Of a DNA stretch of 64,000 bases, positions 1,683-54,926 are shown piece after piece; positions within the stretch are counted from its first letter, which is position 1; each line of letters starts with the position of its first letter. The DNA is from Truepera radiovictrix DSM 17093. GTDB taxonomy: Bacteria; Deinococcota; Deinococci; Deinococcales; Trueperaceae. The stretch lies in the NCBI RefSeq assembly GCF_000092425.1, contig NC_014221.1, positions 811,001 to 875,000 on the forward strand, given 5' to 3'. Made by a program: the position numbers and the translations under genes. A model generated the notes under the pieces. That model was not told where the DNA came from, did no database searches, and saw only the letters and a program-made list of their open reading frames with translations.

Positions 1683-2656
1683 TGGCGCAGCTCAACCTGG
1701 TGCAGAGTGTAGCGCGGACGCTCGCGAGCGAGATGGCGCGCGACGAGCGCGTGGTCGTCTTAGGTGAGGACGTGGGTAAACGCGGCGGCGTCTTTCTGGC
1801 GACCGAGGGGCTGTTCGACCGCTTCGGCCCCGACCGCGTCATCGACTCCCCGCTCTCCGAAGCGGCGATTCTAGGGGCGGCCGTCGGGATGGCCGTCCAC
1901 GGCTTGCGCCCTGTGGCCGAGATCCAGTTCGCCGACTACGTCTACCCCGGTTTCGACCAGCTCGTCTCGCAAGCGGCGAAGCTGCGCTACCGCTCGGGCG
2001 GGCAGTTTTATGCCCCGATGGTCGTCCGCATGCCGGCAGGCGGCGGCGTCAAGGGGGGGCACCACCACTCGCAAAACCCCGAGACGCACTTTGTCCACAC
2101 CCCCGGCCTGAAGGTGGTCTACCCGTCGTCACCCAAAGACGCCAAAGGGCTTCTGACGACGGCGATTCGCGACGACGACCCGGTCGTGTTTATGGAGCCC
2201 AAACGCCTCTACCGCGCCTTTAAAGAGGAGGTGCCGGACGACGAGTACCTGGTGCCGCTCGGCAAGGCGCGCGTGCGCCGCGAGGGCGACGACCTGGTGC
2301 TCGTCTCCTACGGCGGTTCGGTCGCCGAAACCCTCAAGGCCGCCGACGCGCTCGCCGAGCAGGGGATCTCGGCGCAGGTGCTCGACCTGCGCTCCTTGCT
2401 GCCGTGGGACAAAGAGGCCGTTTTGGAGGTGGTTGCGCGCGTCGGCCGCGTCGTGCTGGTGAGCGAGGCGCCCAAGACGGCCGGGTTTATCAGCGAGGTC
2501 GCGGCGACCATCTCCGAGGAGGTGTTAGACGCCCTACTCGCACCCCCCGTGCGCGTAGCGGGCTTTGACACGCCCTACCCTTATGCGCAAGACCGCGCGT
2601 ACCTGCCTGGGGTCAACCGCATCCTCAGGGCGGTGCAGGCGGTTCTGGACTACTAG
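1682..2656 (+). CDS. bkdB: 2-oxoisovalerate dehydrogenase E1 beta
   Basis: This is the beta subunit of the branched-chain dehydrogenase E1 and pairs with the gene just upstream in an alpha2beta2 tetramer. The 324 residues show the usual transketolase-like pyrimidine domain ([37 protein letters not shown]) and C-terminal domain ([21 protein letters not shown]). Length is normal for the family. The start codon overlaps the E1 alpha stop. A 14-bp palindrome AGCTCGTACGAGCT (2655-2668) overlaps the stop codon, in the 101-bp gap before the E2 gene. Confidence 0.94.
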
Positions 2657-2757: not shown

Positions 2758-4194
2758 ATGCCGAGAGAGTTGGTGCTGCCCGAGCTCGCCGAGTCGGTGG
2801 TCGAGGGCGAAATCGTCAAGTGGCTGGTCGCCGAAGGGGAGACGGTCGCGCAAGACCAACCGGTCGTCGAGGTGATGACCGACAAGGTGACCGTCGAGTT
2901 GCCGAGCCCGTTCGCGGGGACGCTCGAGAAACACCTCGTCGCGGAGGGGGCGGTGGTGGCCGTTCACGACCCCATCGCCCTATTCTCCGACGACGCGACC
3001 GGGACGCAGGAGGCGGGCGCGACCGCCGAGGAGGCGCCCAAGCTCGAGGTCGCCGAGGCGCCGACGGCTGACGCGCCCCCCGTGACCCCGACCGGGCGTG
3101 AGCCGAGCGTGCAGGCGCGCGAGGAGCGCTCCATCGTCGAACCGAGCAGCGGTGTGGGCGAAGACGACGGCGACGCCCTCAGCCTCTTTAAAGCCGACAA
3201 AGACGACCCCGGCGCCCCCGTCTATCAGGTGCGGCGGGGCGCGGCGCCCCAAGCGGCGAAGGCGACCGGCCCCTACGGCCGCCCGCTGGCGGTGCCCGCG
3301 GCGCGCAAGCTCGCCCGCGAGCTCGGGCTCGAGCTCACCGCGGTCGCGGGCAGCGGCCCGCACGGGCGCATCCGCGTCGAGGACGTGCGCCGCGCCGCCG
3401 AAGCGAGCGCCCCCGCCGCGGCGGAGCCGCCCTCGGCGCCCGCCCCGACCCCCAAAGCGCCCGCCTACAAGACCCCGGCTGGCTACGAGGGGCTCGAGGA
3501 GCGCGTCCCCGTGCGCGGGTTGCGGCGCGCCATCGCCAACCAGATGGTCGCCTCGCACCTGCAGACGGTCCGCACGCTGCACGTCGACGAGGTCGACGTC
3601 ACCGAACTCGTCGCCCTGCGCGAGCGCCTCAAACCCTTAGCCGAGCGGCGCGGCGTCAAGCTCTCGTACCTGCCCTTCATCATGAAAGCGGCCGTGGCGG
3701 CGCTCAAGCGCTTTCCGGTGCTGAACGCCAGCTTCGACGAGGAGCGGGGCGAAATCGTCCTTAAGCGCTTTTACAACCTCGGGCTCGCGGTCGCGACCGA
3801 CGTCGGCCTGGTGGTGCCGGTAGTCAAGGACGTCGACCGCAAGAGCGTGCTCGAGATCGCCGGCGAGGTGAGCGCGCTCGCGGCGAAGGCGCGCGAGGGC
3901 AAGCTCGCCCCCGAGGACGTGCGCGGCGGCACCTTTAGCATCACCAACATCGGCTCACTGGGCGGGCTCTTCAGCTTCCCCATCATCAACGTGCCCGAGG
4001 CGGCTATCTTGGGCGTGCATTCGATCAAAAAGCGCCCCGTGGTGCTGCCGGACGACACGATCGCCGCGCGGCAGATGCTCTACCTCTCGCTCTCGTTCGA
4101 CCACCGCCTCGTCGACGGGGCGGAGGCGGCGCAGTTTACAAGCTACGTCATCGAGCTCCTGGGGTCGCCGGAGTCGCTGATGCTCGAGGGCTAG
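2758..4194 (+). CDS. Dihydrolipoyl acyltransferase (E2) of branched-chain dehydrogenase
   Basis: This is the E2 core of the dehydrogenase, which transfers the acyl group from lipoamide to CoA. The order is an N-terminal lipoyl domain (residues about 1-80, lipoylation lysine in VMTDKVTVE), a long Ala/Pro/Glu-rich linker, an E1/E3-binding domain (about 178-218, VPAARKLARELG and GPHGRI), a second linker, and the catalytic domain ending in SFDHRLVDGAEAAQF with the catalytic His and Asp-Gly. The start follows GAGGAGTTTGC. With the two upstream E1 genes it forms an E1-E1-E2 operon without E3. The spacing before this gene is larger than between the E1 genes, so it may have extra regulation. Confidence 0.93.
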   Translation: MPRELVLPELAESVVEGEIVKWLVAEGETVAQDQPVVEVMTDKVTVELPSPFAGTLEKHLVAEGAVVAVHDPIALFSDDATGTQEAGATAEEAPKLEVAEAPTADAPPVTPTGREPSVQAREERSIVEPSSGVGEDDGDALSLFKADKDDPGAPVYQVRRGAAPQAAKATGPYGRPLAVPAARKLARELGLELTAVAGSGPHGRIRVEDVRRAAEASAPAAAEPPSAPAPTPKAPAYKTPAGYEGLEERVPVRGLRRAIANQMVASHLQTVRTLHVDEVDVTELVALRERLKPLAERRGVKLSYLPFIMKAAVAALKRFPVLNASFDEERGEIVLKRFYNLGLAVATDVGLVVPVVKDVDRKSVLEIAGEVSALAAKAREGKLAPEDVRGGTFSITNIGSLGGLFSFPIINVPEAAILGVHSIKKRPVVLPDDTIAARQMLYLSLSFDHRLVDGAEAAQFTSYVIELLGSPESLMLEG

Positions 4195-4204
4195 CGGGCG
4201 GGTC

Positions 4205-5851
4205 TTAAAGACCCGCCTCACGAAAGGCCGCCGCGACGATCTCCTGCGCCTCTTGTTGGATGCGCGCGAGGTGCTCTTGGCCCCGAAACGACTCGGCGTA
4301 GATCTTGTAGATGTCCTCGGTGCCCGACGGGCGGGCGGCGAACCATCCCGAGGAGGTGACGACCTTAAGGCCGCCGATGGGGGCGCCGTTGGCGGGGGCG
4401 CGCGTCAGCTTGGCGGTGATGGGGTCGCCCGCTAGCGTGTCGGCTGTGACCTGTTCGGGGGAGAGCGCGCTCAGCGCGGCTTTTTGCTCGGGCGTCGCGG
4501 GGGCGTCCATGCGCTCGTAAAGGGGTGCGCCGAAGCGCGCCTGAAGCTCACGGTAGTGTTCGCCGGGGTCACGACCCGTAATGGCCGTGATCTCGGCCGC
4601 CAAGAGGTCCATGATGAAGCCGTCTTTGTCGGTCGTCCAGACCGTCCCGTCGCGGCGCAAAAAGGACGCTCCCGCCGACTCCTCGCCGCCGAAACCGTAA
4701 GCGCCCCCCAAAAGCCCCTCGACAAACCACTTGAACCCCACTGGCACCTCGGCCAGCGTCCTGCCTAGGCTCTCGGCCACGCGGTCGATCATCGAGCTCG
4801 AGACGAGTGTCTTGCCGACCGCCGCGTCACGCCGCCACCCCGGGCGGTGCTGAAAGAGGTAGTTGACCGCTACCGCGAGGTAGTGGTTGGGGTTTAAAAG
4901 CCCGCTGCTTTTCGTAACGATGCCGTGGCGGTCGAAGTCGGGGTCGTTGCCGAAGGCGATGTCGAAGTCGTCTTTGAGCCCGATGAGGCTCGCCATGGCG
5001 TAGGGCGAGGAGCAGTCCATGCGGATCTTGCCGTCTTTGTCAAGCGTCATAAACGAAAACGCGGGGTCGACGCGGCGATTCACAAGGTGCACGTCGAGGC
5101 CGTAGTGTTCGGCGATGGGCTCCCAGTAGGCGAGGCCGGCGCCCCCCATCGGGTCGACCCCCAGTCTGAGCCCGGCCGCCGCGATGGCCTCCAGGTCGAG
5201 CACCTCCCCGAGATCCTCGACGTAGGGCTTGACAAAATCGTAGGGGCGGGTCGTGTCGGCGCGCAGCGCCCGCGCCAGCGGGAGCCGCTTGACCCCCCTG
5301 AGACCTCCCTCCAGGAGCGCGTTGGCGCGCGCCTCGACCCACTTGGTGACGTCCGTGTCGGCGGGGCCGCCCGAGGGTGGGTTGTACTTAAAGCCGCCGT
5401 CTTCGGGCGGGTTGTGCGACGGGGTGATGACCACGCCGTCGGCGAGCCCCGCATCTTTGCCCCGGTTAAAGGTCAGAATCGCGTGCGACACGGCGGGCGT
5501 CGGGGTGTAGCCGAGCCCCTCTTGGTAGCGCACCTCGACGCCGTTGGCGGCGAAGACCTCGAGCGCCGTGCCGAAAGCCGCCTCGGAAAGGGCGTGCGTG
5601 TCCATACCGATAAAGAGCGGCCCGGTGATGCCCGCCTGGGTGCGGTAGTCGCAGAGCGCTTGGGCGACTGCTAGGATGTGCGCCTCGTTAAAGCTGCCCG
5701 TGAGCGACGAACCGCGGTGCCCGGAGGTGCCGAAGGCGACCCGCTGCGACGCCTTGGTGGGGTCGGGCTGGGTGGTGTAGTAGGCCGCCATGAGGCGCGG
5801 GACGTTGGGTAACGACTCGGGGGGGGCGGGTTTGCCGGCGAGGTCGTGCAT
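4205..5851 (-). CDS. pgm: Phosphoglucomutase, alpha-D-glucose-phosphate specific
   Basis: The enzyme interconverts glucose 1-phosphate and glucose 6-phosphate in the cytoplasm, linking glycogen and sugar-nucleotide synthesis with glycolysis. The 548 residues match the bacterial Pgm family length. Visible marks are TSGHRGSS near the N-terminus, the phosphoserine loop [11 protein letters not shown], the metal-binding [10 protein letters not shown], and the sugar/phosphate loops [10 protein letters not shown] and [22 protein letters not shown]. The ATG at 5851 follows CCGGAGG. It is convergent with the dehydrogenase operon and divergent from the regulator at 6013. Confidence 0.95.
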
Positions 5852-5972
5852 CAGGGCCTCCGGAAGGTAGGGTATGTAGGTGGGTATACCACACGTTGCC
5901 GCACAGCCGACACTGTGGCGCTTGACGCCTGAGCGTCTTTGTGACAGCGGGGCGAAGCTGCACCGCAGCGTT

Positions 5973-6004
5973 GCAACGTTGCGGTAACGTGCGCACGATA
6001 TCGT
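5973..6004. promoter_or_regulatory. Clustered palindromes upstream of regulator gene
   Basis: Two perfect 10-bp palindromes, GCAACGTTGC (5973-5982) and ACGATATCGT (5995-6004), have centres 22 bp apart, about two helical turns. GTGCGCAC (5989-5996) lies between them. They sit immediately before the ATG at 6013. The octamer TAACGTGC at 5985-5992 recurs upstream of the paralogous regulator at 60813-60820. An operator role, possibly autoregulatory, is inference. Confidence 0.35.
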
Positions 6005-6012
6005 TATGTGTT

Positions 6013-6687
6013 ATGCAAAAGCTAACGGATGTCGCCTCCCTTTTGCAGGTACACGGGAGGCTTAATAAGGGCCCACGCGTGAACCCGCTACCGCTCCTTA
6101 AGGCGGCCAATCCGCCTGTCATCAACCTGCACTGCGGTATTTCCCGGCTGAAACGCGAGATGGTTTTAGCGCTCAAGGGAGCAGGTGTGCCCACCGTTTC
6201 AAGCTCCGAGCCTCTCCTCTCGAGGCTTCACCTCATCTTAGACGCACCGCTCGGTTGGGCTCTTTGGCGATCTTTGGAGCTCGAGGGGCAGAGCAAGGTC
6301 GTCGTCAGCGACAACCCTTGCCCTGAATACCGGCTCGACCTACTCGAATCAGAGCCGCTTGCGCTCCTGCACGACGTTTCAGTTACCGACATCGTGCTGA
6401 TGTTGCGGGGTGAGAAGTGTGCCTCTGTTCGGCTGCCGTACACACCCCTTAGCACCACCGAACGCCTGACGTTAAAGCTCATCGCCATGGACTACAGCAA
6501 CGACAGCATAGCCCGTTTACGGGGCGTAGAAACGCAGACCGTTAAGAATGTCGTTCGCAACCTCTACCAGAAGCTCTACCTCAAGACGCGGTTGCAGGCC
6601 GCCCACTACTATTTTGGCAACTGGCATCTGCTTAAAGGCTGGACGCCGCCACCACACGTCGCCCTGCCGGAAGAGATGAGTAGTTGA
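6013..6687 (+). CDS. LuxR/GerE-type HTH regulator with unusual N-terminal domain
   Basis: The protein has 224 residues from the ATG at 6013. The C-terminal 60 residues are a GerE-type helix-turn-helix (LSTTERLTLKLIAM, then RGVETQTVKNVVRNLYQKL). The N-terminal part may be a degenerate receiver-like fold: I see the strand VVVSDNPCPEYRLDLL but no clear phospho-acceptor. It is clearly paralogous to the regulator at 60872: both share ILDAP-G-A, V(S/T)DNPC, P-(A)LL and a terminal YYFG. The start is uncertain. No strong Shine-Dalgarno precedes 6013, and a GTG at 6079 has AATAAGG nearby. Position at the head of the accessory cluster suggests it controls the cluster. Confidence 0.75.
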   Translation: MQKLTDVASLLQVHGRLNKGPRVNPLPLLKAANPPVINLHCGISRLKREMVLALKGAGVPTVSSSEPLLSRLHLILDAPLGWALWRSLELEGQSKVVVSDNPCPEYRLDLLESEPLALLHDVSVTDIVLMLRGEKCASVRLPYTPLSTTERLTLKLIAMDYSNDSIARLRGVETQTVKNVVRNLYQKLYLKTRLQAAHYYFGNWHLLKGWTPPPHVALPEEMSS

Positions 6688-6840
6688 CGGAGCACAGTAC
6701 CAAGGTACAGGTACGAAGGGTGCTTGGACACCTCCCGGAGGTTTAAGTACCCTCAGTTAAGGCGCTAACCAATCTTGTGAACAGCTTGTGGCAGACGCAC
6801 CGGAACGCACTGCGCGTCGACGCAGGAAGGGGTGGGATAG

Positions 6841-7941
6841 GTGATTCCGATCAGGTACGTGAGGCGTCTGCGTGCTCTCTTTGTCTTTGCCTTGATAGCT
6901 GGACCAATAGCTTGGGCACAGGACGCTATGAGCCTTCCGTGGCGGCTCGGGCCGGGGCCGGGTACGGTGGTAACGCTTCCTGAAGTGGAGACCGTACAAG
7001 GTGACGTGATCGCGACTGGCGTTCCCAGTCTCGTCTTTTTCACGATGCTGTCTAACAGTGTTGAATCGGCCTTTGAGCACGCTGCGCTCGCGACCGTCTG
7101 GCAAGAGCGCTACCCGGGAGTGCAGGTCATCTTGGTGGACACCCGCAGTGACGCCGAGGAGGTTCGCCGCTGGGTACAAGCTACCGGCGTCGAGGTCTCT
7201 GTGGTCGCTGACGCGGACGACGCCTTCGAGGAAGCGTTCGATACCAACCGCCTTCCGATCCTCTATTTGTTGGACGAGTCGGGCGTCATTCAGGACAAAA
7301 TTGTGGGGGGGGATCTGGGGCGCCTTACCGAATTCAACCAAGTCTTAGCGTGGGCGGCGTCGAGAGCTTGGGAGAAGGTGGTCGCTCAGCGTTCTGATTG
7401 GCTCGTCGTAGGAAAAGCGCCGTACCGGGAGCTAGCCGACGTTCCTCTTGGCGGCGGTCATCCAACCGTTGTCTATCACACTGATCCCCTTTGTTCTCCG
7501 TGTCAGGAGGTGGCTGAAGGGCTCCAGCGCGAACTCAACGCTTTAACCAAAAGGTATCCAGAGGTATCCATCGTCATCTTGGAGGTGGGTGCGAAGGCGG
7601 GGGATGTAGAGGCGCTACACGAGCTGCTTGAAGGCTATGTCGAACTGTACGGGCGCGAAGCGGCACCTGCTCAGCTGCTGATGATGGTCGAGCGTGGTCG
7701 TCTCGCTGGAGCTGAAACGGTCCAGCTTCCTAGAGAGGGATGGGCACAGAACATCAAGTTGGTTACCTACGAGCCTGGAGACACCAACGATCCAGGTCGC
7801 TGGTGGGGTCAAACACCAGTCCCAGGCCTAATGGTCTTCGACGCTACGGGGGTCTACCGGGGTCCGGCACCGCTTTGGCTAGGGCCATTTCGTGCAGAAG
7901 CGCTCCGAGAAGCCATCACGACGCTGATAGCTGACCTCTAA
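6841..7941 (+). CDS. Exported protein with two thioredoxin-like domains (CSPC in the second)
   Basis: A GTG at 6841 with AGGAAGGGG upstream starts a 366-residue protein. Residues 1-27 are a signal peptide (RRLRALFVFALIAGPIAWAQ), so it should act outside the cytoplasmic membrane. Residues about 50-180 look like a thioredoxin fold without a CXXC pair (VFFTMLSNSVESA at the usual active-site place; cis-Pro-like RLPILYLLDESG). Residues about 195-366 form a second fold with the active-site motif C218-S-P-C221 and a late VPGLMVFDATG strand. Same size and architecture as the protein at 61563. A 15-nt gap separates it from the 8-Cys peptide gene. I infer a dedicated disulfide oxidoreductase or isomerase for that peptide; a reductase for cytochrome or metal proteins is an alternative. 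Confidence 0.8.
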   Translation: MIPIRYVRRLRALFVFALIAGPIAWAQDAMSLPWRLGPGPGTVVTLPEVETVQGDVIATGVPSLVFFTMLSNSVESAFEHAALATVWQERYPGVQVILVDTRSDAEEVRRWVQATGVEVSVVADADDAFEEAFDTNRLPILYLLDESGVIQDKIVGGDLGRLTEFNQVLAWAASRAWEKVVAQRSDWLVVGKAPYRELADVPLGGGHPTVVYHTDPLCSPCQEVAEGLQRELNALTKRYPEVSIVILEVGAKAGDVEALHELLEGYVELYGREAAPAQLLMMVERGRLAGAETVQLPREGWAQNIKLVTYEPGDTNDPGRWWGQTPVPGLMVFDATGVYRGPAPLWLGPFRAEALREAITTLIADL

Positions 7942-7956
7942 AAGGAGGGGAGGCAA

Positions 7957-8226
7957 ATGCGAAGAACTCTGGTGATTGTGGTGTGTTGCCTCAGTCTCTT
8001 GGTGATTGGTAGCAGTTCCTCTGCTCAGTGTTCGAGCACCTGTCAAAACCCACGACGAACCGGTTCGCCGCGGATTATAAGTGCAGGCTGCGACAACTTC
8101 TGTTTCTCCAGAACAAACGGATTATCCGTAAGTTATCAAGAGGTGCGGGAGACATCGTACAGCTGTAGCAATGGGGGAACCTGTGTGGTGCGGGAAACCT
8201 ACACCGCTCCATGTGGCATCTGCTGA
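7957..8226 (+). CDS. Small secreted cysteine-rich peptide precursor
   Basis: An 89-codon gene with the strongest ribosome-binding site in the cluster (AAGGAGGGGAGG). Residues 1-23 are a signal peptide (MRRTLVIVVCCLSLLVIG then SSSSA). Predicted cleavage before Gln-Cys leaves about 66 residues with eight cysteines, the last being the C-terminal residue (APCGIC). The lack of a lipobox argues against a lipoprotein. Hand-counted GC is 141 of 270 (52%), well below the neighbourhood. It lies between the thioredoxin-fold protein and the permease. I do not recognise the family. By context it could be a disulfide-stabilised bacteriocin, signal or surface peptide. Confidence 0.78.
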   Translation: MRRTLVIVVCCLSLLVIGSSSSAQCSSTCQNPRRTGSPRIISAGCDNFCFSRTNGLSVSYQEVRETSYSCSNGGTCVVRETYTAPCGIC

Positions 8227-8237
8227 CTTCAAGTCAC

Positions 8238-8276
8238 GAGGGACGCGGTGGGCGCTAAGCGCCCACCGCGTCCCTC
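8238..8276 (+). terminator. 18-bp perfect hairpin inside the cluster (attenuator-like)
   Basis: An 18-bp perfect inverted repeat (8238-8255 and 8259-8276) has a 3-nt TAA loop. It begins 12 nt after the peptide stop and ends 13 nt before the permease ATG. No U-tract follows, so it may be a partial terminator or an mRNA 3'-end stabiliser that raises peptide output relative to the transporter. Confidence 0.7.
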
Positions 8277-8289
8277 GGCTAGGGTCACC

Positions 8290-10527
8290 ATGGCTCTCTT
8301 TCGTTATGTAAACGTCTTGTCCCTCCTGCTGATCGTCGCCCTTGTGACCGCTGTCTTGGCGCTCAGCGCTCGCTCGGACGCCGAGTGGCAGGCATTGGTG
8401 ACGGGGGTGGGTGGCGAAGATGTCGTCACCTTTCGGTTGCGGCGGGACGCGGTGGACGCACCTTCCTGGACCCCTAGGCATCTAACTGATCTGAGCGCCC
8501 TTACGGGGGTGCGTGAGGTGTTTTGGCGGGGTGGCTACCACTACATCCAGGGCCCCGGTTCGGCTTACGTGCTGCCCGTGACGGTGGCTTCGCCGGGGTT
8601 CTTGAGTGCCCGGCAGGTCACCCTCGTTGCGGGACGCGACCTCTCGGCCGAGGATGCCGGACGCCCCCGCGCGGTGCTCAGTGAGCAGCACGCGCGCGAA
8701 ATCTTCCCCGATTTGAGCCCCGCGGAGGTTCTTGGTCAGAGCATCCGTGTCGACAACGAGCAGCTCGAGATCGTCGGCGTTGCAGGTGATAGCGACGAGG
8801 TTGACGCTGCTTTCCGGACCGCAACTACCCCCCCCTCGAGTTATCCGGGTAGCTATGACCTTCAGACCGTCTACCTACGCCTCGATGATGAAACCAACAT
8901 GGCAGCGGTCGTTGAGCAAGCCACCGCTTATTTGGCGGCTACGGAGGCGCTGGCGATGCTCGAGGCTATTCCCTACCGCGAGTTCGTGCGTCCTGGGGTC
9001 ATCGATGAGCGCCTCGATTACGTGCGCGAGATTACCGTGCTCTTCGACTGGCTGGTGGCGTTTGCACTCCTTCTGGGGGTGATTAACCTGTTTAACCAGG
9101 CGCTGCTCTCGGCTGCAGCCAGGCGCCAGCGCTGGGCACTTCACCGTGTACTCGGCGCAACGAGGGGGCAGCTGGTCGCACGTGAACTCGTAATAGGTGC
9201 TGGGGCGGAATGGGGGGCAGTCATCTTCGGGGTTCTCTTGGGAGGGTTGCTCGGCTCGCTGTTTGGCGGGTTGCTGAGCCTTCGGGTCGTACTCACGGGG
9301 CTACTCATCGGCATACTCAGCTTCTTGCTGGGGAGCTTTCCCCTCGTTAAGGGCACCCTGTCGCTCCATCCGTACGGAGCGCTCAGACAGAGCAAGGGCG
9401 TGGCGCGTCATCCGCTGCTGACTCTGGCAGGGGCGCTGGGTCTTCTTGGAGGTTTAGCGCTGGTGGTCTTGGCGGGTGGGTTTCGCGATCTGGGGCAGCG
9501 GGCGGTCGGTGCTGAGGTGCAGGCGATAGGCGCCGACCTGGTGGCGTTCGTTCCCGATAGGCGGAGCATCCTGCCGGTTGCGCAGCTTACCGAAGAGGAC
9601 GTTGCCGCCTTTAGGGAGGCCTTCCCCAGAGTACCGGTCACGAGGTTCGAGCGCTACCCGGCCTCGGTGCAGCGCGATACGGTCTCCTATGACGTTGAGG
9701 TGATCGCTGCCGACGACGTGTTCTTGGAAGTTAGCGGGACGCGCCTCGAGGCCGGAAGCTGGGAGGGCGCTGGTGTGGTCTTAGGAAGCGCGGTGGCGGC
9801 GGCGCTGTTCCCCGATGGGGGCGCCCTAGGGCAGAGGGTCACGTTGGGTGGTCAGCGGTTAGGAAGCGACCTCGAACTCGAGGTCGAGGCGGTCGCCGCG
9901 CTGCCCGCTACCGAAAGGTTCGAGTCCCCTGCGCTGCGTCCCGGCGCGGTGCTGCTGCCGCGCGCTCTGCTCAACACCTTTTCGCTAACCTCGGAGGTGT
10001 ACGCGCGGGTCGGGGGGCTGACGGAGAGCGAGGTCGAGGCGCTGGGTGCCTTTTTGAGCGCGCGCTACCCGCAAACTGCTCCTACCGTAGCGTTTTACGC
10101 CGCCGACAGCGAGAGGTGGTATCTAGGGCGCCTCCAGGAGGTGGCGCGGCACTTCAACCTCGTCGCCGTGCTGATCTTTGTACTCGCGTCGGTCGGTATG
10201 GCGACGTTGGCGGTGGCGCGGGCCGAGGCTAGACGCTACGTGCGCGGCCTCGAGCGCGCTTTCGGCGCGACGCGCGCCGAGGTGTTTCGTCGTGAACTAC
10301 AGAGCGTCGCCCGTCTTTCACTCCTGATCGGTACGCTTGGGGTGGGGGTGGGACTTTTCACCCTCTGGTGGTGGGCGTCTGGCGCAGGCTACGCCTTTGT
10401 TATCCCCGCGTTCTGGCTTTTTGCGGCGCTGGTGACAACGTCTGGGATCGGGGTTCTCGTTGGTACTGCTGTGGCGCACTGGAGCGCCTTCCGCTCACCT
10501 ATGGCAGTGCTAAGGGGGGAAGGATGA
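8290..10527 (+). CDS. FtsX/MacB-type ABC transporter permease, fused two-half form
   Basis: The 745-residue membrane protein starts at ATG 8290; an upstream in-frame GTG lies inside the hairpin stem and is less likely. Layout: TM1 (about 8-27), a ~220-residue outer domain of MacB_PCD type, three TMs (about 250-370), a fifth TM (about 394-415), a second outer domain (about 415-620), and three C-terminal TMs. Two FtsX-like motifs, R-LGATRGQLVARE and RAFGATRAEVFRRE, face the cytoplasm as coupling helices. It ends in MAVLRGEG, and its TGA overlaps the ATPase ATG (ATGA). No MacA-like adaptor is present. The layout resembles lactococcin-972-group and BceB-like permeases. Role: export of, or resistance to, the Cys-rich peptide (inferred). 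Confidence 0.85.
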   Translation: MALFRYVNVLSLLLIVALVTAVLALSARSDAEWQALVTGVGGEDVVTFRLRRDAVDAPSWTPRHLTDLSALTGVREVFWRGGYHYIQGPGSAYVLPVTVASPGFLSARQVTLVAGRDLSAEDAGRPRAVLSEQHAREIFPDLSPAEVLGQSIRVDNEQLEIVGVAGDSDEVDAAFRTATTPPSSYPGSYDLQTVYLRLDDETNMAAVVEQATAYLAATEALAMLEAIPYREFVRPGVIDERLDYVREITVLFDWLVAFALLLGVINLFNQALLSAAARRQRWALHRVLGATRGQLVARELVIGAGAEWGAVIFGVLLGGLLGSLFGGLLSLRVVLTGLLIGILSFLLGSFPLVKGTLSLHPYGALRQSKGVARHPLLTLAGALGLLGGLALVVLAGGFRDLGQRAVGAEVQAIGADLVAFVPDRRSILPVAQLTEEDVAAFREAFPRVPVTRFERYPASVQRDTVSYDVEVIAADDVFLEVSGTRLEAGSWEGAGVVLGSAVAAALFPDGGALGQRVTLGGQRLGSDLELEVEAVAALPATERFESPALRPGAVLLPRALLNTFSLTSEVYARVGGLTESEVEALGAFLSARYPQTAPTVAFYAADSERWYLGRLQEVARHFNLVAVLIFVLASVGMATLAVARAEARRYVRGLERAFGATRAEVFRRELQSVARLSLLIGTLGVGVGLFTLWWWASGAGYAFVIPAFWLFAALVTTSGIGVLVGTAVAHWSAFRSPMAVLRGEG

Positions 10528-11186
10528 TCGAGCTGCGAGGCGTGACCAAGCGTTACGGGCAGGGGCAGGCGGCGGTGCAGGCGCTTACGGACGTGAGCCT
10601 CGTCGTTCCCGCCGGAAGCTACGTTGCCGTCACGGGACGGAGCGGCTCCGGTAAGTCGACGCTGCTAAGTATCGTCGGTTGCCTCGAACGACCTACCTCG
10701 GGGGAGTATCGGCTTCTGGGGCAGCCTATCACCCGCGCGCCGGACCGTGAGCTGTCACGGCTACGCGCCCAGAGCTTTGGCTTTGTCTTTCAAGCGTTTC
10801 ACCTGCTCCCTGAAAAGAGCGTGCTAGACAACGTCACGCTGCCCCTGCGTTATGGCCGCCTGCCGAAAGCGGCGTGGCGCCGCCGTGCACGAGAGCTGCT
10901 GGGGCAAGTTGGGCTCGCTGAACGTATGGATAGTCGCCCCAGCCAGCTTTCAGGGGGTGAGCAGCAGCGCGTCGCTATCGCCAGGGCGCTGGCGAACGAC
11001 CCTAAAGTTTTACTTGCCGATGAACCGACCGGCAATCTAGACAGTCACACTCGGGACGAGATTATCGCCTTGCTCGAAGCAGAGCATGCGCGGGGGAAAA
11101 CGCTCTTGATCGTCACGCACGATGCGGAGCTAGCAGCTAGGGCGCAGGTGCGTTTAGCGCTGCGCGACGGGTGCGTCGTGTTCTAG
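10524..11186 (+). CDS. ABC transporter ATPase (MacB/LolD type)
   Basis: A 220-residue nucleotide-binding subunit, start ATG 10524 overlapping the permease stop and preceded by AAGGGGGGAAGG. All motifs are intact: Walker [12 protein letters not shown]-loop [18 protein letters not shown], signature LSGGEQQR, Walker [13 protein letters not shown] and the switch His in VTHD. The ADEPTGNLD form is typical of partners of FtsX-like permeases. Together with the upstream permease it forms one transporter. Its stop overlaps the stop of the convergent M50 gene by 4 nt. Confidence 0.92.
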
Positions 11187-11821
11187 GCGAGCACCAGCCG
11201 CAGCAGCGCGAGCGTCACCCCGTTGATGAGCCCGAACACCTGCTCGCGAAACCCCACCAAGAGGATGACGACGAGCAAAAAACCGTAGCGCTCGAGCCCC
11301 CACAGCGCGCGCTGCATCCCGCGCGGTAAAAGCGCCTGCAGCGCCTTCGAGCCGTCTAAGGGGGGGACCGGCAGGAGGTTAAAGGTCGCCAGCACGATGT
11401 TGATCTGCGCCATGAAAAAGAGCCCCGCGCGCAGCGGGTCGCGCGCGAGCGCCTGGGACAGGGTCCCTAGCGTGACGCCGAGCCCGGCGAGGGCGCCCAA
11501 AGCGGCGAGCGCGAGGAGGAGGTTGACGATGACACCGGCGAGCGAGACGACGAGCATCCCTACGCGGTAGTGGCGGAAGTTGCCGGGTTGGATGGGGACC
11601 GGTCTCGCCCAACCGAAACCGACGAGAAAGAGCATGGCGGTGCCCACGGGATCTAGGTGCCGGAGCGGGTTGAGGGTGATGCGGCCCAGGTTGCGGGCGG
11701 TTTTGTCGCCCATCTTGTCGGCGGTCCACGCGTGGGCGAGTTCGTGCAGCGCGAGGCTATAGAGGAGCGCGCCGGCGACCAGGGCGAAGGTCGCCGGCGC
11801 ACTCTGCAGCAGCGAGAGCAC
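11183..11821 (-). CDS. Site-2 protease family (M50) membrane metalloprotease
   Basis: An integral membrane zinc protease of the short M50 (rhomboid-like Rv1735/YdcA-type) group. The first helix carries HELAH (residues 26-30) and the distal helix carries the third ligand in PVPPLDG. The start is the GTG at 11821, which shares its G with the TAG of the upstream gene (TAGTG), giving 212 residues; a longer frame to 11989 would read into that gene. It is paralogous to the gene upstream (shared L-R-LDP-GT--LF--GFGW-RP-P block) but keeps the full zinc site. The substrate is unknown. Confidence 0.85.
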
Positions 11822-12462
11822 TAGAGGCCGGGGATCAAACGGACGAGGCCAAGGATCACTTGCTGAAAAAAGGCCTGCAGCGCGCCCGTGACGTTGAGCG
11901 CGTTGAGCACGAAAAAGACGAGGATAAACCCGAGGATGCCGAACGAGGCGATCTGCTGGATAAAGCGGCGGACGTCCGGGTTGCCCCACGCGAGCGCGGC
12001 CTTGGCGCCGTCGAGGGGGAAGACGGGGAAGAGGTTGATCACCGCGTGCAAGATGGCGACCGACGAGGCGAGGATAAACGCGCGCGCCAAGATGGGGCTG
12101 CCGAGCGCGGCGAAAATGGCGGCGACGAGGGTCGCGACAAAGGCCACCAGGAGGTACGCGAGCGGCCCGCTATACCACACCAGCGCCTCTTGGCGGCCGC
12201 GGCCGCGGTAGTTGCGGCTGTTGGTCGGGATGGGGCGCGGCCAACCGAAGCCCAGGAGAAAGAGGAAAAGCACGCCGATGGGCTCGAGGTGCCGCTGGAA
12301 GTCGAAGCTCAAAAAGCCCGAGAAGCGCGGGTTGGCGTCCCCGTAGCGCGAGGCGACCCACGCCTGCGCGACGTTGTGGAAGACAAGGGCGAAGATCATG
12401 ACGATGCTGACGATGATGAGGTCGGTGGTGTTGTAGCCGCCTTGTAGATAACGGATGAGCAC
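11821..12462 (-). CDS. M50-like membrane protein lacking the zinc motif
   Basis: A 213-residue, multi-TM homologue of the M50 protease encoded immediately downstream. At the place of HEXXH it has HNVAQ (residues 29-33), so the catalytic Glu and second zinc His are lost, while FPLDGAKA is kept. It starts at GTG 12462 behind AGGAGAAAAG and is translationally coupled to the next gene. I infer a pseudo-protease that may partner or regulate the active enzyme; it is unlikely to cleave by itself. Confidence 0.8.
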   Translation of the reverse strand: MLIRYLQGGYNTTDLIIVSIVMIFALVFHNVAQAWVASRYGDANPRFSGFLSFDFQRHLEPIGVLFLFLLGFGWPRPIPTNSRNYRGRGRQEALVWYSGPLAYLLVAFVATLVAAIFAALGSPILARAFILASSVAILHAVINLFPVFPLDGAKAALAWGNPDVRRFIQQIASFGILGFILVFFVLNALNVTGALQAFFQQVILGLVRLIPGL

Positions 12463-12508
12463 CTTTTCTCCTGTAGGGCGCGCCTCGCGGCCTCGCGGCG
12501 AGACGGCG

Positions 12509-13750
12509 TTAGGGTCGTGGCGAAGGGGTTGTCGGTTTGAGGCCCGCGACGAGCCGTTGGGCGAGCCTCCGCTCGTCGTCGAGCGACCTCACCTCACCGG
12601 CGGCGCGGGCGCGCGCGACCGCGCGCAGCACTGCGCCCACGTGCGGGCCTGCTGGCAGCCCCAAGTTTAACACGTCCTCCCCGCTAAGCAGGGGCCGCTC
12701 GAGCTGCGCGGCGAGCTCGGGGCGGGCGGCTTTGAGGGCGAAGTGTTCCGCCTCGCTGCCGCGGTCGAGCGCCTCGCCGCGCAGCGCCGCCAGAAAGCGC
12801 CGGCGCGCGCTCACAAGGCGCTTGGGCCAGCCCATGCGGCGCTGGTGGGCGGCGAGTTCGCTTTCGCTCAGCGCGCCGAGCAGAACGATCAGGTAGCTCT
12901 CGGCGGGGACGGGGTGGCGTGAGCGCAGCGCGTCGAGCTCGCCGACCCACGGCGTGGTGCGCAGGCCGTAGAGCGCCCAGAGCGCCCCCGGCGCCTCACC
13001 TTGGGCCTTGCCCTGCATTGCGAGGTGCTCGAGGGCGGGGGCGACGCGGGGCTCGGCGAGGGTCAAAAGGAGCTCGTGCTTGAGGCGCTCCGGGCTCACC
13101 TGCTCATGGGCGCGCGCGCGCAGCGCCCGCGCCGCCTGCGCCGCCGTGAAGGCGTCGTAGGCGAAGCCGAGCCGCGCGGCCAGCCGTGAACCCCGCACGA
13201 GCCGCGTCGGGTCGTCGCAGAACGAGGCGGGGTGCAGCGTGCGTAGCCGCCGCGCCCGGAGGTCCTCGAGCGCCCCCGGGACGCTCAGCAGCAGCCGCGG
13301 CGCGGGCGCGAGGCGCAGTGCAAAGGTGTTGACCGAAAAGTCGCGGCGCTCAAGGTCGTCCGCTAGAGGGGCCGCCTCCACCGTCGGCAGGGCGCCGGGG
13401 TGGGCGTAGCGCTCGCGGCGGGCGGTGGCGAGGTCGAGCTCGAGCTCCTCTAGGCGCAGCGTGCAGGTCAAAAACGCCTCGTGGCAGCTCAGCACCCCCC
13501 CGAGGTCGCGCTGCAGCGCCCGCCCGAGCGGGGCGGCGTCGCCCCCCTCGACGAGCACGTCGAGGTCGCGCACCGCCGCAAGCTCGCCTAGAAGCGCGTC
13601 GCGCACGGTGCCCCCGACGAGGTAGAGCGCCCGCCCCCGAAAGCGCTCCGACAGAGCGTGCTGGGTCACCGCCGCCAACAGGCGGCGGGCGCGCTCGGGC
13701 AGGGCGGTGTAGAGCCGCTCTAGGATGCCTTCGGGGTCGGGGTGGGGCAC
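12509..13750 (-). CDS. CCA tRNA nucleotidyltransferase / poly(A) polymerase family
   Basis: The 413-residue protein has a class II nucleotidyltransferase head: LVGGTVRDALLG, the metal-binding RDLDVLVEG (Asp-x-Asp), and RRDFSVNTFALRL. An RNA-binding region follows with DDPTRLVRGSRLAARLGF. It adds nucleotides to tRNA 3' ends (CCA, or A only in split systems); which of these cannot be told from this gene. The start is GTG 13750. TAGACT at 13758-13763 on the minus strand lies 7 nt before it, so the mRNA is probably leaderless. Confidence 0.88.
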   Translation of the reverse strand: MPHPDPEGILERLYTALPERARRLLAAVTQHALSERFRGRALYLVGGTVRDALLGELAAVRDLDVLVEGGDAAPLGRALQRDLGGVLSCHEAFLTCTLRLEELELDLATARRERYAHPGALPTVEAAPLADDLERRDFSVNTFALRLAPAPRLLLSVPGALEDLRARRLRTLHPASFCDDPTRLVRGSRLAARLGFAYDAFTAAQAARALRARAHEQVSPERLKHELLLTLAEPRVAPALEHLAMQGKAQGEAPGALWALYGLRTTPWVGELDALRSRHPVPAESYLIVLLGALSESELAAHQRRMGWPKRLVSARRRFLAALRGEALDRGSEAEHFALKAARPELAAQLERPLLSGEDVLNLGLPAGPHVGAVLRAVARARAAGEVRSLDDERRLAQRLVAGLKPTTPSPRP

Positions 13751-24339: not shown

Positions 24340-24373
24340 GTGGGGAGCGTCCGCCACGGCGGACGCTCCCCAC
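24340..24373. terminator. 16-bp hairpin between convergent genes
   Basis: A perfect inverted repeat (24340-24355 with 24358-24373) begins 22 nt after the LysM gene and 39 nt from the end of the kinase gene on the other strand. It has no T-run, and could serve as a bidirectional terminator or transcript end protector. Confidence 0.6.
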
Positions 24374-54886: not shown

Positions 54887-54926
54887 ACGCACGAAGAGCC
54901 CTACACGCGTAGGGCTCTTCGTGCGT
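54887..54926 (+). terminator. 18-bp hairpin after NTF2-like gene
   Basis: Perfect inverted repeat (54887-54904 and 54909-54926) with an ACGC loop, 15 bp after the stop. No T-run follows. Confidence 0.7.

Follow-up and report, generated by a model that had tools for sequence, protein, structure and literature searches.

Between the gene for a small cysteine-rich peptide and the gene for an ABC permease, the chromosome of Truepera radiovictrix carries a long, perfect hairpin. What might such an element do within an operon? We analysed the 64,000-nucleotide stretch that contains it (the window; positions 811001-875000 of the single 3,260,398-bp contig), which has a G+C content of 68.2%, close to the 68.1% stated for strain RQ-24T in the available part of PMC3072082.

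The hairpin and its gene cluster

A preliminary description of the locus reported a perfect 18-bp stem at 8238-8276 with a TAA loop. The palindrome proved exact, and we found that one more C-G pair closes its base, making a 19-bp stem (8237-8255 paired with 8259-8277) around the loop at 8256-8258; a printed version with 20 bp and a 1-nt loop was taken as sterically impossible. The same description placed the element exactly between the two genes and without a U-tract, and both points were confirmed. The hairpin starts 10 nt past the peptide stop and ends 12 nt short of the permease ATG at 8290, and any 8-nt window at the end of the stem contains at most two T. It thus has the GC-rich stem of at least 5 bp and the short loop of an intrinsic terminator and lacks the U-tract directly after the stem; a terminator scan did not include it in its list. 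Stable, free of a U-tract and located shortly after a stop codon, it has the features of a U-less 3'-end hairpin.

The 19-bp hairpin is far beyond chance. RNA folding of 8220-8300 gave -55 kcal/mol, whereas shuffled sequences averaged -28.4 (z -9.0; none of 200 as good), and the longest perfect stem in each of 20 first-order random copies of the window was 9-13 bp. At -44.3 kcal/mol the hairpin itself was the most stable among 87 folded from codirectional and convergent gaps (stems of at least 8 bp), and also among 49 folded from any location (stems of at least 11 bp). Its stem is the longest perfect one in a 764-kb sample of the genome. The hairpin is also unusual for sitting in a short operon gap: only four of 126 codirectional gaps of 20-100 nt, this one included, contain perfect stems of at least 10 bp.

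A repeat family of the REP/BIME type was considered and rejected, as only the two arms of the hairpin itself match exactly in the whole genome. With up to three mismatches, a whole-genome pattern search gave 54 sites against 38 for a reversed control; one other site was found at one mismatch to an arm, with no partner arm among the matches listed. Rfam at gathering thresholds recognised no family in the 64-kb window, and no tRNA was found. A promoter scan found no sigma-70-like promoter in the gap between the peptide and permease genes, so by that scan transcription of the permease must cross the hairpin.

The surrounding genes are listed in Table 1. From their sequence, the five genes at 5941-11186 look like an acquired peptide-export-like cluster. 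G+C content was 0.58-0.59 over 6250-8499, compared with 0.67-0.70 at 4000-5499 and 11500-12999, and the codon score per codon was 0.10-0.21 for the four called cluster genes versus 0.32-0.56 for the remaining eight genes called within the first 14 kb. The one congener (G001) gave no match to the permease, the peptide or the thioredoxin-like protein. The start of the LuxR-type gene was set at the first possible GTG, while the gene caller favours 6274.

Table 1. Coordinates of the cluster features in the window and of the counterpart peptide genes at two related loci
Feature	Position	Strand	Basis and remarks
LuxR-type HTH regulator gene	5941..6687	+	PF00196 GerE, E 1.2e-8
Thioredoxin-like protein gene	6841..7941	+	Pfam AhpC/TSA-Redoxin match in first half; start uncertain
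Shine-Dalgarno AAGGAGG of the peptide gene	7942..7948	+	Sequence; anti-SD duplex -12.7 kcal/mol
Cys-rich, probably secreted peptide gene, 89 aa, CGIC end	7957..8226	+	ORF; same-slot counterparts at L037 and L036
Perfect 19-bp hairpin, TAA loop, no U-tract	8237..8277	+	Sequence and folding
Permease Shine-Dalgarno-like AGGG, weak, not part of the hairpin	8281..8284	+	-4.6 kcal/mol
MacB/FtsX-type ABC permease gene, 745 aa	8290..10527	+	PF12704 E 7e-29, PF02687 E 6e-8
ABC transporter ATPase gene (MacB/LolD type), overlapping the permease stop	10524..11186	+	PF00005 E 1e-33
L037 peptide gene	2263-2496		CGxC C-terminus
L036 peptide gene	4966-5196		CGxC C-terminus; odd Cys number

The window peptide looks like a Sec-exported, Cys-rich product, a prediction in which the signal peptide was judged by eye. 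It matched no family above cut-off in the libraries searched, Pfam giving a sub-threshold EGF match (E 0.13), and none of the solved structures searched resembled it (best E 0.85). The thioredoxin-like protein carries a CSPC motif in its second half, with C218 and C221 invariant in all five aligned relatives. In NCBIfam, the ATPase matched MacB, LolD, FtsE and L_ocin_972_ABC, each below its curated cut-off. The claim that the strongest Shine-Dalgarno of the cluster belongs to the peptide gene held narrowly, at -12.7 kcal/mol versus -12.2 for the ATPase, with -11.5 for the thioredoxin-like gene (GTG 6841) and -4.6 for the permease; the LuxR-type gene was left out of this scoring.

We found no name for the five-gene cluster in the libraries searched or in the literature retrieved. 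The literature searches were not aimed at the cluster itself and so are no proof that it is undescribed. This small cluster may be new; the hairpin is an element of an ordinary kind.

U-less hairpins at gene ends in the genome

The Truepera sample comprised 36 stretches, covering 764 kb of 3,260 kb (23%). Genes were called with a simple script based on ORFs and codon score; it missed the window peptide gene, which was added by hand together with the L037 peptide gene. Only perfect stems were counted, and tails were classed as U-poor (at most 3 T of 8) or U-rich (at least 5 T of 8), exactly 4 T of 8 belonging to neither class. Convergent gaps (13.1 kb in all) held 10 perfect stems of at least 10 bp, codirectional gaps (67.1 kb) 24, divergent gaps (23.8 kb) 2 and gene interiors (656 kb) 44. 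These counts correspond to 7.66, 3.58, 0.84 and 0.67 per 10 kb, respectively, so that the density in convergent gaps is about 11-fold that within genes. Perfect stems of this length, whatever their tail, are therefore biased to the 3' ends of genes and not to the 5' ends.

Long and short stems near stops carried different tails. Among stems of at least 12 bp, 12/17 were U-poor and 2/17 U-rich; for stems of 8-9 bp the corresponding figures were 16/37 and 18/37. A stem of at least 7 bp with a U-rich tail was present in 18 of 392 3' regions, compared with 0.3 in shuffles, indicating that the genome also has ordinary intrinsic terminators beside the long U-less hairpins.

We then related U-less hairpins to gap length, in counts that omit stems below 9 bp and spacings above 90 nt and in which one hairpin in a convergent gap may count for both genes. 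Of 308 gene ends facing long gaps, codirectional or convergent, 24 were followed by such a hairpin, against 3 of the 130 that face codirectional gaps of 16-100 nt (Fisher p 0.03). At gaps of up to 15 nt, which leave little room for one, the count was none of 179 gene ends. The U-less hairpins lay from -7 to 86 nt past the stop (search range -8 to 90). The excess in long gaps makes the U-less class look like a transcript-end element. The class is not special to Truepera, since an E. coli sample contained 8 U-less and 10 U-rich hairpins among 118 gene ends, and samples from four other members of the phylum also had U-less hairpins after stops. The gap-length trend was not seen in these five samples, which are too small to show one (p 0.27-1 overall and 0.36-1 for those from the phylum).

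Other hairpins of this kind were noted in passing. At 54887-54926 of the window, a perfect 18-bp U-less hairpin (-35.6 kcal/mol) lies between convergent called genes and is the second longest in the 764-kb sample; another, of 15 bp (16 bp if a 2-nt loop is allowed), lies at 24340-24373, also between convergent called genes. Two hairpins similar to each other, with arms GTTATCCACAG/CTGTGGATAAC, occur in long gaps between called genes elsewhere in the sample (L039 12026-12053 and L050 7358-7387). Their arm holds what we take to be a DnaA-box-like word, and they are possibly a repeated or replication-linked element.

The same slot in related clusters

A search of 111 genomes of the phylum with the thioredoxin-like protein matched five, Truepera included. 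A profile of this protein likewise matched 5/111, all of them its own rows, and the independent evidence is the single-sequence search. Two of the matching loci, L037 (genome G050) and L036 (G064), keep the order GerE-domain gene, thioredoxin-like protein, Cys-rich peptide, large permease-like protein and ABC ATPase, the GerE-domain gene again lying upstream; with Truepera, this gene order is present in 3 of the 111 genomes. The ATPases of the window and L037 are 59% identical. The permeases have diverged strongly, with 23% over 724 aa between the window and L037 (pair E 3e-7) and a best piece at E 2e-5 between the window and L036. The L037 permease had no Pfam match and the L036 permease only a sub-threshold one to MacB_PCD (E 0.004). 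When the L037 permease was searched at E 1e-15, it returned 2/111 genomes (its own and G064) and did not return the window permease. No match for the L037 permease or the L037 thioredoxin-like protein was found among plasmids.

The closest relative of the window permease (42%) is encoded in G033, on a contig (apparently L028/JAAYYF010000109.1) that ends inside the permease, so the hairpin slot is not visible there. A permease match in G020 (27%) was set aside because its listed neighbours, inspected by eye, do not have the gene order of the cluster, and so were the thioredoxin-like homologues of G008 and G025, which by eye have no such permease-ATPase pair among their listed neighbours. Thioredoxin-like homologues with 35% identity and two CxxC motifs were observed at L034 4204-5328 and L035 7247-8347, with no exporter pair adjoining.

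The L037 and L036 peptides were located through gene order, not by sequence search, and are clearly related to each other (pair E 2e-14); they have a common C-x(9)-C spacing past the signal peptide. The window peptide resembles them only weakly (pair E 0.047), a single-sequence search missing both, and it was grouped with them because of its position, Cys pattern and CGxC end. A three-row profile of the peptides matched 17/111 genomes with E values no higher than 0.1. Three of these matches were strong (E <1e-34), but they are the sequences from which the profile was built and so confirm nothing; further members were not found. Of the other 14, the L061 match sits inside another gene and the remaining 13 were treated as chance. 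Three weak matches from the single-sequence search with the peptide (E 0.005-0.009) were also discarded, having internal stops and lying over unrelated frames.

In the L037 cluster, the slot between peptide and permease holds an unrelated perfect 14-bp hairpin at 2507-2538, again with no U-tract; 10 nt separate it from the peptide stop (2496) and 20 nt from the permease ATG (2559). As a control we used 191 kb of the same genome (17 of 41 fetched loci, the 24 omitted being contigs under 1.5 kb), where stems of at least 10 bp were present in 6/32 short codirectional gaps, the hairpin slot included. With such stems in 5/31 of the other gaps, a hairpin in the common slot could be a coincidence at a rate of about 1 in 6, and we regard the L037 hairpin as weak evidence of slot conservation. 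There is no gap in L036: the inferred permease GTG at 5181 falls within the final codons of the peptide gene (stop 5196), and the junction showed no comparable hairpin. The hairpin is therefore not essential to the cluster. In all three clusters the ribosome-binding site of the peptide is stronger than that of the permease, the L037 and L036 energies being -17.7/-3.8 and -11.6/-7.0 kcal/mol (the latter with the inferred permease start), compared with -12.7/-4.6 in the window.

Possible functions and known systems

We hold it to be about an even chance, judging from the sequence, that the hairpin acts as a leaky 3'-end or stability element and so raises peptide mRNA above transporter mRNA. It would be an operon-internal member of the genome's class of U-less hairpins after stop codons, folding in the mRNA 10 nt past the peptide stop and so roughly outside the footprint of the terminating ribosome. 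Once folded, it would block 3'-to-5' exonucleases, and a shorter mRNA that ends at the hairpin, with the peptide gene last, would outlive the full-length mRNA. The transporter part of the mRNA would be lost through Rho or other termination, cleavage or decay, with a step-down in coverage at the hairpin, and some read-through would supply the weakly translated permease and the overlapping ATPase. The outcome would be much secreted peptide, presumably exported by the MacB-type transporter, and little exporter, which the weak permease ribosome site would lower further.

We favour the leaky 3'-end or stability reading because the available part of PMC13289151 describes Rho-dependent, exonuclease-trimmed transcripts with U-less 3'-end hairpins, because Rho (PF07497) and PNPase (TIGR03591) are both encoded in the Truepera genome, and because no RNase III catalytic domain was recognised there. 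The mechanism also draws on the improbable structure, the gene-end bias of perfect stems, the prevalence of U-less tails among long stems near stops, the lack of a predicted promoter in the gap, the unrelated L037 hairpin and the ribosome-site asymmetry; it does not depend on the kinship of the permeases or of the window peptide. In the accessible text of PMC11696848, strong terminators are associated with higher transcript abundance. A rut-like excess of C over G was absent after U-less hairpins, both when 28 of them were compared with 14 U-rich ones (p 0.45) and when they were compared with 254 gene ends (p 0.19). Downstream of the 8237 hairpin, C outnumbered G over the first 100 nt (33 to 26), whereas over 150 nt G was the more frequent (50 to 42). 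The missing rut bias of the class as a whole counts against the favoured mechanism, as do the L036 cluster with no hairpin, the possible coincidence of the L037 slot, the ordinary terminators present in the genome and the U-less hairpins that E. coli has too.

The preliminary description proposed a partial terminator that lowers transporter output, and this proposal survives in part. The 3'-end bias of the class and the weaker permease ribosome site in three of three clusters agree with it, as does the available text of PMC9045158, where stem-loops before ABC-transporter genes set such ratios; the missing intrinsic-terminator U-tract and the one cluster of three without such a hairpin do not. 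With the U-tract missing, partial termination is one reading among others, and the hairpin could equally well act as a barrier to 3' exonucleases. Partial termination, in which the long GC stem would itself release a fraction of RNA polymerases without a U-tract, is the main rival, plausible at a clearly lower level than the favoured mechanism, and would yield the same coverage step. In addition to the position after a stop and the bias of the class to gene ends, it can draw on a clostridial reporter test in which the share of transcripts terminated at internal stem-loops upstream of ABC-transporter genes was 20.7-96.1%, on the occurrence of clostridial stem-loop types with fewer than five U (both in the part of PMC9045158 consulted), and on single hairpins without a poly-U trail, which the available part of PMC8355165 calls I-shape terminators. 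Against this stand the absent U-tract at 8237 and the contrast offered by the U-rich terminator-like hairpins of the same genome. In the same portion of PMC9045158 a longer poly-U gave more termination, and a title cited in PMC8355165 states that the mycobacterial polymerase needs the U-tract.

A hairpin without influence on mRNA ends is unlikely, whether it is inert, shields permease translation from the ribosomes of the peptide gene or is a leftover palindrome. The L036 cluster does without a hairpin, and the predicted fold leaves the weak permease ribosome site outside the stem, both of which suit such a reading; but the longest stem of the 764-kb sample would hardly persist without selection, and the hairpin is single-copy with no repeat family. 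Least probable by far is processing by RNase III, with a cut at the hairpin that would part peptide and transporter messages: 19 bp of perfect pairing come near the substrate length of that enzyme, but its catalytic domain (PF14622) was not found in the Truepera genome (G000), against 8/14 control genomes in which it was, and TIGR02191 gave only a 35-bit C-terminal match below cut-off (G000:C1:2899175-2899384). PF14622 was also silent in the phylum-mate controls Thermus composti and Deinobacterium chartae, so a divergent RNase III could be missed. As a separate observation, the Deinococcota may lack RNase III or have a divergent one.

A broader proposal, which we advance tentatively and think rather doubtful as a whole, has two parts. 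Truepera and relatives in its order would form or protect many mRNA 3' ends by long U-less hairpins soon after stops, and a family of secreted Cys-rich CGxC peptides, unrecognised by the libraries searched and equipped with a thioredoxin-like protein and a MacB-type exporter of its own, would set its peptide-to-exporter ratio by an operon-internal hairpin. The locus offers a compact candidate for an operon whose genes differ in output although no U-tract terminator separates them, in a small peptide-export-like cluster. No 3'-end map for the Deinococcota was found in the literature searched, among the matches listed. Should transcripts in this phylum indeed end at U-less hairpins or be protected by them, terminator prediction for it would need different rules.

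Intercistronic hairpins in malE-malF and puf confer segmental mRNA stability between genes needed in unequal amounts, and the Truepera hairpin has a comparable location; the malE-malF element is a repeated REP element, whereas that of Truepera is single-copy. Clusters of the lactococcin 972 type have a small secreted peptide, a large permease and an ABC ATPase in a row, an order found here too. The assignment to a bacteriocin operon in the preliminary description drew on gene order only and was not substantiated: the peptide is Cys-rich and matches no family above cut-off, the ATPase scores 194.2 bits, below the TIGR03608 (lactococcin 972) cut-off of 254.85, and the thioredoxin-like and LuxR-type genes are extra.

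The U-less 3'-end hairpins in the available part of PMC13289151 are similarly GC-rich, lack a U-tract and occur in an organism with Rho and PNPase. They are transcript ends mapped by RNA sequencing, whereas the Truepera hairpin is operon-internal and known from sequence alone. In ABC-importer operons of cellulolytic Clostridia, internal stem-loops set the first gene above the transporter genes, and their fold energy was linked to the stability of the upstream mRNA (PMC9045158, available part, also for what follows). Those systems are importers with binding proteins, unlike the MacB-type, exporter-like permease of Truepera, and many of their stem-loops have U-rich tails where the Truepera hairpin has no U-tract. 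Folding energies are -38.3 to -10.1 kcal/mol in the Clostridia and -44.3 in Truepera, computed with different programs. In both cases the stem-loop lies right after the gene for a secreted protein and before ABC transporter genes.
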